Shown here: positions 2,125 to 6,274 of the stretch, one piece after another
Layout of the letters: every line of letters starts with the position of its first letter
Numbering within the stretch: the stretch's first letter is position 1
Assembly (NCBI RefSeq): GCF_023921125.1
Contig: NZ_CP099466.1
Span: 2,976,001-3,040,000, forward strand
DNA length: 64,000 bases
DNA from: Arthrobacter caoxuetaonis
GTDB lineage: Bacteria; Actinomycetota; Actinomycetes; Actinomycetales; Micrococcaceae
Direction: 5' to 3'
Made by a program: the position numbers and the translations under genes
The notes under the pieces: model-generated
Told to the model about the DNA's origin: nothing
Databases searched by the model: none
The model's input: only the letters and a program-made list of their open reading frames with translations

Positions 2125-3222
2125 TCAGGCTCCGGTGCGACGGCGCCGGGAGGCTGCTGCCAGCGCCTCGAGAATGACAGCCGACGTATCCCAGTCCATG
2201 CACTTGTCCGTGATGCTTTGCCCGTAGGTCAGCGGGCGGGGGTTCTCGCTGTCGTGCGGCTGCGCGCCGCCCACCAGGAAGCTCTCCAGCATGACGCCTG
2301 CGAGCCTGTGCCGTGCATCGTGGCCGGATTCCAGCGTGGCGGCCAGTTCCAGTGCCACTTCTGCCTGGCGGTGATGGTTCTTGCCGCTGTTGGCGTGGCT
2401 GGCGTCCACGATTAGGCGCGGGTTAAGGCCCTTGCCGGCCAGGGTTTCGGATGCCGCAAGCACATCCGGGGCGGAGTAGTTCGGCCCGGAGCTGCCGCCG
2501 CGGAGGATGAGGTGCGTGTCGGGATTCCCGGCGGTACGGACCATTGATGCCCGTCCTGCGCCGTCGATCCCCAGGAATGACTGCGGAGCGGACGCGGCAT
2601 CGCACGCGTCCACGGCGATCTGCAGCGAACCGTCGGTTCCGTTCTTGAAGCCGACCGGCATGGACAGCCCGGAGACCAGCTGCCGGTGGATCTGGCTCTC
2701 GGTGGTCCGGGCTCCGATTGCTCCCCACGACACCAGGTCGGCGACGTACTGGGGGCTGATGGGTTCCAGGAATTCTGTCCCGGTGGGCAGGCCGAGTTCC
2801 GCAGCCGCGATGAGGAAGCGCCGCGCGGCGAACAGCCCGGTGGCGATGTCATGGCTGCCGTCCAGGCGGGGATCGTTGATCAGCCCTTTCCATCCCACTG
2901 TGGTGCGCGGCTTTTCGAAGTAGGCCCGCAGCACCACGAGAAGATCGGACCGGTGCTCTTCGGCGGCAGCGGCAAGGCGTGCAGCGTACTCCAGCCCGGC
3001 CACCGGATCGTGGATCGAGCAGGGCCCTACGATCACAAGGAGCCGGTCATCGGCCCCGTTGAGTACGGCACGGATGTCTTCGCGCCCCCGGCTCACGACG
3101 CCGGCAAGCTCGTCGGTGAGCGGCAGTTCAGCCAGGAGATCGGCGGGTGCCGGCAGCGGGAGGAACTCGCTGACCCGCAGGTCCGACGTACGGTTTGAAT
3201 GTTTTGTGCTGGTGAGGTTCAT
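2125..3222 (-). CDS. aroG: Class I 3-deoxy-7-phosphoheptulonate (DAHP) synthase
   Basis: Condenses phosphoenolpyruvate and erythrose 4-phosphate in the first step of the shikimate pathway. At 365 aa it matches the AroF/G/H (class I alpha) family rather than the longer plant-like class II type. The metal-ligand Cys lies in VIVGPCSIHDP (about residues 63-73), the substrate-binding stretch RAYFEKPRTTVGWKG at 99-113, followed by KNGTDG, ILRGG and DASHANSGKN. The ATG at 3222 has only a weak Shine-Dalgarno (GGGA), consistent with control by the upstream leader and hairpins described separately. Whether the enzyme is also feedback-inhibited by Tyr, Phe or Trp cannot be read from the sequence. Confidence 0.95.
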   Translation of the reverse strand: MNLTSTKHSNRTSDLRVSEFLPLPAPADLLAELPLTDELAGVVSRGREDIRAVLNGADDRLLVIVGPCSIHDPVAGLEYAARLAAAAEEHRSDLLVVLRAYFEKPRTTVGWKGLINDPRLDGSHDIATGLFAARRFLIAAAELGLPTGTEFLEPISPQYVADLVSWGAIGARTTESQIHRQLVSGLSMPVGFKNGTDGSLQIAVDACDAASAPQSFLGIDGAGRASMVRTAGNPDTHLILRGGSSGPNYSAPDVLAASETLAGKGLNPRLIVDASHANSGKNHHRQAEVALELAATLESGHDARHRLAGVMLESFLVGGAQPHDSENPRPLTYGQSITDKCMDWDTSAVILEALAAASRRRRTGA

Positions 3223-3245
3223 GGTCCCGTTATCCGTGTGTGAGG

Positions 3246-3364
3246 CCGGCGGGACTTCTCTTCAGACCCCGCCGGATATGGCGAAGGGCAAGGGAATAAT
3301 CCCCTGCCCTGGTGGCTCTGAAGGTTGGCGTCAGCGAATTATCGCGCGGGCTCCTCCAGAGCCA
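3246..3364 (-). promoter_or_regulatory. Probable attenuator hairpins of aroG
   Basis: In transcript order three pairings are visible. (1) TGGCTCTG inside the leader codons (3364-3357) pairs perfectly with CAGAGCCA (3320-3313), just after the leader stop. (2) AGGGCAGGGGA (3310-3300) pairs with TCCCTTGCCCT (3295-3285) around a 4-base loop, with one G-U pair. (3) CCGGCGGG (3275-3268) pairs perfectly with CCCGCCGG (3253-3246), close to the aroG start. Pairing 1 can form only if ribosomes leave the leader free, the logic of a classical attenuator. No U-tract follows, so the outcome could be termination or occlusion of translation. Confidence 0.65.
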
Positions 3365-3395
3365 ACGAAAAATACGCATACCAACGGTTAGTCAT
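3339..3395 (-). CDS. Aromatic-rich leader peptide of aroG
   Basis: 18-codon reading frame translating to MTNRWYAYFSLALEEPAR. Four of six consecutive residues are aromatic (W5, Y6, Y8, F9), covering all three end products of the shikimate pathway. It lies 116 bases upstream of aroG on the same strand and ends before a set of hairpins. No Shine-Dalgarno is seen, but a -35/-10 pair places the probable transcript start at the A of its ATG, so translation is likely leaderless. Its inferred role is to sense charged aromatic tRNAs through ribosome stalling and so set aroG expression. It is not expected to act as a peptide. Confidence 0.75.
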   Translation of the reverse strand: MTNRWYAYFSLALEEPAR

Positions 3396-3401
3396 GCCTA
3401 G

Positions 3402-3431
3402 ACGGTAGGCCCAGGCCGCGCTGCTTGGCAA
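3402..3431 (-). promoter_or_regulatory. Probable promoter of the aroG leader transcript
   Basis: On the minus strand TTGCCA (-35, 3431-3426) and TACCGT (-10, 3407-3402) are separated by 18 bases. The -10 ends six bases before the ATG of the leader peptide, so the predicted start nucleotide is that A. This matches the leaderless transcripts common in actinobacteria. The call is by inspection only. Confidence 0.6.
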
Positions 3432-3569
3432 GCCGGGCGCCCGCCGGCCTGGATTGTGACGCTGCCGCCCGCCTCTCCGCCCGCTTCGTGAACATGCCTT
3501 GTCAGGCCCGCACGCCGCTCCGTAGTCTCAATGATTCCAGAGCAGAATGCTTCGAAAGGCGTTGCCCCC

Positions 3570-6274
<2,705 letters not shown>

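Follow-up and report, generated by a model that had tools for sequence, protein, structure and literature searches.

How could one short leader in front of one gene monitor the supply of three amino acids? This question is raised by the aroG locus of Arthrobacter caoxuetaonis, which lies in a 64,000-nucleotide stretch of DNA (hereafter, the window). Synthesis of tryptophan, tyrosine and phenylalanine begins with the product of a class I DAHP synthase gene such as aroG, and the initial annotation had placed upstream of this gene an 18-codon frame containing W-Y-A-Y-F, which is indeed present on the minus strand. Attenuation in general is likely at this leader on the strength of the sequence comparisons described below, and we consider it probable that the element is, specifically, a ribosome-mediated attenuator that senses charged tRNA-Trp, tRNA-Tyr and tRNA-Phe and is of the same kind as aroR of Corynebacterium glutamicum. 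Two features characteristic of such attenuators can be recognized here, a short upstream ORF carrying codons for the end products and mutually exclusive helices, with a predicted dependence on ribosome position in the fold models. The features of the locus are collected in Table 1.

Table 1. Features of the aroG leader region, in window coordinates
Feature	Coordinates	Strand	Basis or comment
Predicted -35 element TTGCCA	3426..3431	-	TTG 15-19 nt before the -10 box in 54/62 distinct Micrococcaceae-type loci
Predicted -10 element TACCGT, 6 nt before the leader ATG	3402..3407	-	TANNNT conservation
Leader ORF MTNRWYAYFSLALEEPAR, 18 codons, ATG...TAA	3339..3395	-	Predicted leaderless, with the transcript start at or near 3395
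Regulatory codons TGG TAT GCG TAT TTT (W-Y-A-Y-F)	3369..3383	-	Conservation and codon preference
Segment 1 GTTGGCTCTGGAGG, inside the ORF	3353..3366	-	Pairs with segment 2
Segment 1' GGAGCCC	3348..3354	-	Could fold back on segment 1 within the ORF as a short hairpin; duplex predicted by the fold model
Segment 2 CCTTCAGAGCCACC	3311..3324	-	Alternative partners: segments 1 and 3
Hairpin T, a terminator-like stem of 11 pairs separating segments 2 and 3	3285..3310	-	Swap test; double changes in alignment A1
Segment 3 CCGGCGGGGTCTGAAG, where the GGCTCTG-type motif recurs	3260..3275	-	Segment 2:tail swap test; masked-position test
Segment 4 AGTCCCGCCGG	3246..3256	-	Pairs with segment 3 or segment 5; swap tests
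Segment 5 GGATAACGGGACC, aroG ribosome-binding region	3223..3235	-	Predicted duplex GTCCCGCCG:CGGATAACGGGAC; Shine-Dalgarno match weak by eye
aroG, class I (AroFGH-type) DAHP synthase, 365 aa	2125..3222	-	Start at 3222; PF00793 and TIGR00034 matches

The closest named relative of the aroG product among the matches listed is that of Arthrobacter citreus (82% identity). In overlapping genome samples, a class I DAHP synthase is encoded by 12 of 29 members of the genus, by 48 of 120 from the family, by 57 of 248 from the order and by 59 of 296 from the class. All 29 members of the genus encode a class II DAHP synthase (e.g. L242, G000:C1:1468897-1470201), so that the class I enzyme with its leader is an additional isozyme. 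None of the 25 class II loci inspected (350 nt upstream of mechanically chosen starts) carries an aromatic leader, and a search of the organism's own genome for the 15-base leader core, allowing at most one mismatch, returned nothing besides the aroG site. At L092/L093 (genome G022) and at G116:C1:2819428-2820491 (leader in L183), aroG is split into two separate matches and the leader is intact, a possible sign of recent isozyme loss or of sequencing errors. Just downstream of aroG lies a minus-strand gene for a 70-aa excisionase-type helix-turn-helix protein (1653-1862; TIGR01764, PF12728), and the intergenic region with the leader promoter is common to aroG and a divergent plus-strand gene (3531-4850) for an FMN-dependent alpha-hydroxy-acid dehydrogenase-like protein that resembles lactate dehydrogenase or MftD, below curated cut-offs.

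Does the leader persist in relatives? Among 226 loci, four were not oriented and were dropped, so that 222 upstream regions were read; by a loose aromatic-ORF criterion, 172 of these 222 regions pass against 31 of the 222 reverse complements (a set that includes non-actinobacterial loci). When the non-actinobacterial loci were removed by title, 172 class I loci remained, and a leader was found by pattern in 138 of them and by eye in four more (L124, L127, L205, L206); these four came from eight inspected pattern misses, of which one was masked and three lacked a leader. The W/Y/F codons, whose conservation upstream of aroG in relatives the initial annotation had proposed as a check, are largely kept, and the peptide recurs letter for letter in relatives. 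No leader was detected by pattern in 17 of 17 loci with a full match in family f35, in the three loci titled Bifidobacterium, Gardnerella or Bifidobacteriaceae (L043, L047, L062) or in four f4 loci (L197-L200), with L043 and L197 having a frame that passes the loose criterion only. Thinning of the 138 leaders left 113 non-redundant ones, 17 to 25 aa in length, with W, Y and F together in 101, F and Y in nine and W and Y in three. The Micrococcaceae form is RWYAYF with a nearly invariant core, and 18 bases, CGTTGGTATGCGTATTTT, are identical in 42 of 47 WYA[YN]F leaders. Elsewhere the forms are RWYWRF (Isoptericola, Puerhibacterium), RAYWRF or GYWRF (Williamsia, Mycobacterium), NRWYWRY (Streptomyces) and QRVYFWF (Nocardia). 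The constant position of the leader before a DAHP synthase gene is no argument here, since this gene served to select the loci.

The promoter proposed in the initial annotation, TTGCCA and TACCGT separated by 18 nt, was located exactly as described, with 6 nt between the second element and the leader ATG. All 62 distinct Micrococcaceae-type leaders have TANNNT 6-9 nt before the ATG, compared with a background of 0.0092 per position; such a box lies 5-9 nt before the ATG in all 138 pattern leaders, where, however, the choice of start favoured the box. The spacing of the -10 element fits transcripts that would begin at the leader ATG itself, i.e. that are leaderless. Neshat and co-workers (2014) reportedly describe the C. 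glutamicum aroR transcript as leaderless. Several Streptomyces lividans leaders have been described as leaderless-type transcripts beginning at the ATG (PMC8079986, available text).

The codon choice in the leaders is the inverse of the usage in the aroG genes themselves. In the 113 leaders, TAT outnumbers TAC by 165 to 6 and TTT outnumbers TTC by 106 to 10, whereas in 78 aroG genes from the same set the ratios are 5:389 and 8:559, respectively. A single tRNA with a wobble-position G normally decodes both members of each pair, so that decoding may be slower at the codons ending in U. The preference for TAT could in part also serve RNA pairing, given that the bases of the aromatic codons pair with a stretch past the stop codon (swap z -6.4, see below).

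Of the 113 leaders, four (L030, L036, L069, L224) were dropped because the automatic call of hairpin T failed or T was absent. Counted from the first base of the last aromatic codon to that of segment 1 (GGCTC), the offset is 8 nt in 98 of the remaining 109, 11 nt in nine leaders, 9 nt in one and 14 nt in one. When the A site holds this last aromatic codon, the start of segment 1 is 11 nt downstream of the first P-site base, about where mRNA enters the ribosome; stalls at the earlier aromatic codons likewise leave segment 1 free. The reading frame relative to segment 1 is kept in 108 of 109 leaders. In L118, with an inserted base, and L196, with another spacing, the frame over segment 1 and the tail of the peptide are changed and the RNA motif is nearly the same, which speaks for the RNA rather than the peptide as the conserved entity there.

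Could the RNA between the leader and aroG then be the receiver of the signal? From the leader to aroG, the RNA is predicted to fold more stably than shuffled sequences (z = -5.3; 0 of 200 shuffles equally stable). The initial annotation had paired leader bases 3364-3357 (TGGCTCTG) with 3320-3313 (CAGAGCCA), and complementarity is complete there and extends to 12 pairs in the window; the 8-bp GC hairpin that it had noticed near aroG (CCGGCGGG/CCCGCCGG) also exists, 3' of the 11-pair hairpin. Beyond hairpin T lies a second copy of the segment 1 motif, GGCTCTG or GGCTCCG, as segment 3. To assess the helices by comparison, pairing partners were exchanged between species in a swap test on 99 loci (a further ten of the 109 having been dropped for a length over 235) and on 51 representatives; apart from this thinning to 51, the shuffle and swap figures ignore relatedness. 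Exchange made the duplexes of the ladder poorer: the z values for the 99 loci and the 51 representatives, respectively, are -14.1 and -10.7 for the helix of segments 1 and 2 (1:2), -8.9 and -7.2 for segment 2 with the tail, -25.8 and -18.4 for the arms of T, -10.2 and -7.8 for 3:4, and -8.5 and -4.7 for 4:5, with 0 of 2000 permutations as good for any of these in either set, whereas four pairs outside this ladder gave z values between -1.3 and +4.9.

The three motif copies change together at one position, T-A-T in 47 and C-G-C in 45 of 109 leaders, a count that is biased by the search because segment 3 was chosen by maximal pairing; the swap of the whole tail and a masked-position test are fairer. 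With position 5 masked in the search, segment 3 still pairs with segment 2 at that position in 85 of 109 leaders (TA in 46, CG in 37), against 32.8 +/- 4.4 for shuffled tails. Compensatory changes within the Micrococcales were sought in alignment A1, comprising 41 of 45 prepared sequences (L122, L174, L175 and L177, in which T is differently built, were omitted). For 1:2 plus T, 97.7% of the cells are paired and nine pairs are changed on both sides, 3 of 14 in 1:2 and 6 of 10 in T; for 3:4, 97.6% are paired and 3 of 6 pairs are changed on both sides, so that compensatory changes, which the initial annotation had suggested looking for in the hairpins, are seen for 1:2, T and 3:4 (0 of 500 shuffles in each test). 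The 2:3 helix is 95.1% paired in A1, with no covariation beyond that in shuffles (79 of 500), and its support accordingly comes from the comparison between clades. The 4:5 helix is the weakest-supported of the ladder and its signal is modest: the mean longest helix is 5.22 pairs against 4.66 +/- 0.11 when swapped, and at least five contiguous pairs can form in 73 of 99 loci against 60 of 99 after one swap. On the whole, comparison supports the putative alternative helices 1:2, 2:3, 3:4 and 4:5, of which 1:2 and 2:3 share segment 2. The general claim of the initial annotation, a Trp/Tyr/Phe leader with a switchable RNA before aroG, thus draws support from conservation, promoter spacing, codon inversion and compensatory changes alike.

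The presence of a downstream motif copy and of a segment complementary to the ribosome-binding region suggests a relay. Transcription would start at the leader ATG and, as the promoter spacing implies, the ribosome would load without a Shine-Dalgarno sequence. When tryptophan, tyrosine or phenylalanine is short, the ribosome would stall on TGG TAT GCG TAT TTT; segment 1, beginning about at the mRNA entry, would be free to pair with segment 2, segment 3 could pair with 4, and the aroG ribosome-binding region would be left open, presumably the ON state. When all three are plentiful, the ribosome would run to the stop codon and keep segment 1 from segment 2, which would pair with 3; segment 4 would then be free to cover the ribosome-binding region, presumably the OFF state. 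Hairpin T probably adds termination where it is followed by a U-tract, for example in Williamsia, Mycobacterium and Paractinoplanes loci. The sequences themselves show the ORF, the promoter spacing, the codon bias, the geometry and, by comparison, the alternative helices; stalling, the direction of the switch and the shares of termination and translation control belong to the model. We advance only tentatively, with somewhat more doubt than belief, the full scheme in which the relay 1:2, 2:3, 3:4, 4:5 passes the position of the ribosome across a dispensable, inserted T to the aroG ribosome-binding region, in a widespread actinobacterial three-amino-acid sensor that is leaderless and uses U-ending, presumably slow codons, with lineages shifting between termination and translation control by gain or loss of the U-tract.

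How much of this scheme is reproduced by equilibrium folding, when the ribosome is taken to cover the RNA as far as 12 nt beyond the P site? Over the 99 loci, the model yields 1:2 at 0.89 and 2:3 at 0.06 for a stall at the Trp codon, 0.86 and 0.05 at the Tyr codon, and 0.60 and 0.16 at the Phe codon; with the ribosome at the stop codon, 2:3 reaches 0.67, 1:2 being zero by construction (0.77 when pairing across the ribosome is permitted), and with no ribosome the values are 0.69 and 0.21. With a footprint of +15, the Phe-codon stall would resemble the stop state (1:2 0.21, 2:3 0.51). The predicted 3:4 pairing is higher in the stall than at the stop in 91 of 99 loci, albeit with means of only 0.15 and 0.02, i.e. 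as a minor helix. In the window, the modelled values are 0.80 for 2:3 and 0.88 for 4:5 at the stop and 0.57 for 3:4 and 0.29 for 4:5 in the Trp stall, and the Tyr8 and Phe9 stalls would keep 4:5 at 0.63 and 0.66; in the close relative L002, 4:5 would drop from 0.87 at the stop to 0.68 in the Trp stall. Over the 99 loci, the modelled difference in 4:5 between stall and stop is weak (-0.059, p 0.06). Over these loci, the two states are alike in how far the ribosome-binding region is exposed (mean difference -0.005, p 0.52), and simple equilibrium exposure as the readout is unsupported over the family. The equilibrium folds are thus in favour of the 1:2/2:3 switch, the final step onto the ribosome-binding region being a putative one.

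What, then, is the role of hairpin T? The 11-bp hairpin that the initial annotation had seen beside the leader pairing was recovered, and its stems typically have about 10-13 pairs among relatives. Were T a regulated intrinsic terminator, and 3:4 and 4:5 ordinary structure of a 5' UTR, the locus would be a case of plain transcription attenuation, an explanation that we regard as rather unlikely even though T is the best supported helix (z -25.8) and C. glutamicum aroR has been described as acting on transcription (PMC11802643, available text). Compatible with it are the tails with 5-7 T among the first eight bases after the stem in 12 of 113 leaders, including Williamsia, Mycobacterium, Gordonia and Paractinoplanes loci, with 2-4 T in 96, counts that depend on the automatic stem end inasmuch as the stems of some rows take in tail bases. 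The tail in the window, TCGCCATATC, is U-poor, with two T in the first eight bases, and a scan of positions 3150-3600 for terminator-like sites with a T-run gave none; because an intrinsic terminator with a U-tract is not seen, we do not class the leader in the window as a transcriptional attenuator. Moreover, no structure that excludes T was found, and regulated formation of T is rejected as a folding mechanism, T forming in every modelled state (about 0.995). In L036, L069 and L224, T is apparently absent and segments 2 and 3 form a direct hairpin by eye. With the U-tract varying by lineage and these three loci appearing to lack T, the hairpin looks like an insert that acts as a terminator in certain lineages, whereas its role in the window may be purely structural.

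The conservation of the peptide itself invites other explanations. An arrest by the nascent peptide, in which WYAYF would stall the ribosome on a free aromatic amino acid in the manner of TnaC, could make sense of the nearly invariant RWYAYF core of the Micrococcaceae. We find it very improbable given that codon choice, not only the residues, is conserved against the usage of the genes, that other clades have YWRF, RYPYF or RFYF instead, and that in L118 and L196 it is the peptide tail that changed. It is hardly credible that the frame encodes a small functional protein whose aromatic codons have no regulatory role: this would fit the maintenance of the frame relative to segment 1, but the lengths and tails differ, the order of aromatic residues varies and the codon inversion would be left unexplained. 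A T-box or other Rfam family was also considered and discarded: covariance models run over the window gave one tRNA at the gathering score and no T-box or other family, and near the leader there was one chance-level match (E 4.7).

The preferred reading, a ribosome-mediated attenuator, can now be set against known systems. The E. coli trpL and pheL leaders are the attenuators of trp and pheA, and the statement of the initial annotation that the parts follow trp/phe attenuators holds for the stalling codons in a short ORF and for the mutually exclusive helices. It does not extend to the second motif copy downstream, the predicted helix onto the ribosome-binding region and T without a U-tract in the window; the aroG leader further differs in combining three amino acids in one leader and in its predicted leaderless start. 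Translational attenuators of the ermC type are alike in that the position of the ribosome decides the masking of the ribosome-binding site, as it would at aroG, and differ in the signal, an antibiotic-arrested ribosome there and, putatively, uncharged aromatic tRNAs here (PMC10219788, available text).

The closest precedent is aroR-aroF of C. glutamicum, known from descriptions, where a leader with aromatic codons likewise precedes a class I DAHP synthase gene. In genus g211, probably Corynebacterium, of the family of Mycobacterium, the class I enzyme is present in 6 of 29 genomes; of the six loci, three (L253-L255) have RFYF/WRFYF leaders in which visual inspection finds the same segments 1 and 2 and hairpin T, a fourth looks related in layout, and the other two show nothing of the kind. 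The start of C. glutamicum aroF itself gave no match in the 301 genomes searched. The leader before aroF has been reported to carry Phe-Tyr-Phe (PMC4046766) and is named aroR (PMC7356990). The window has no Phe-Tyr-Phe codons, its W-Y-A-Y-F adding tryptophan, and does have the class I DAHP synthase downstream; we take F-Y-F to be the motif of one branch, and the window element to be a variant of the same kind as aroR, not aroR itself. The relay steps 2:3, 3:4 and 4:5 do not appear in the available text of the aroR descriptions (PMC4046766, PMC7356990, PMC11802643). According to a review, aroF transcription rises when phenylalanine is limiting but is indifferent to the availability of tyrosine, which in C. 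glutamicum goes against triple sensing (PMC11802643). The initial annotation had taken a mixed W/Y/Y/F leader to be undescribed. This has to be qualified by the aroR precedent and otherwise stands, in that a literature search covering few subscription papers brought up no account of a leader combining Trp, Tyr and Phe codons before this gene. In their available texts, a 2005 comparative study of Actinobacteria gives no conserved RNA structures for phenylalanine/tyrosine operons (PMC1262725), and a reannotation of S. lividans lists eight leaders, none at a DAHP synthase (PMC8079986); an ilvB leader (PMC10272879) and a tool for uORFs (PMC10219788) are likewise on record.

Leaders with aromatic codons, such as MSAKFYFYFFWHLKPLADREGES, also occur upstream of proteobacterial DAHP synthase genes (L041, L045, L052, L054, L066, L071, L073, L075; Burkholderiales, Xanthomonas, Bradyrhizobium and others). 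In eight of the nine loci inspected, a CCGCC..GGCGG hairpin is followed by a run of at least six T, and these leaders look like classical three-segment attenuators; a general literature search, not aimed at proteobacteria, returned no description of them.

What does the actinobacterial leader tell us beyond this one locus? In sequence terms, the window leader appears to be a wider, tryptophan-including variant of the aroR-type switch, distributed across many actinobacterial families. A switch described for one industrial species would thereby turn out to be shared throughout the group, in more than a hundred natural variants, and this number of variants opens the codons, the helices and the output to dissection by comparison and simple reporters. 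The system would allow testing how one leader integrates three amino acids, why regulatory codons reverse the preference of the host and how an attenuator moves from control of termination to control of translation. Furthermore, there is relevance for strains engineered toward aromatic compounds, in some of which the aroR leader of C. glutamicum has been replaced (PMC7356990).
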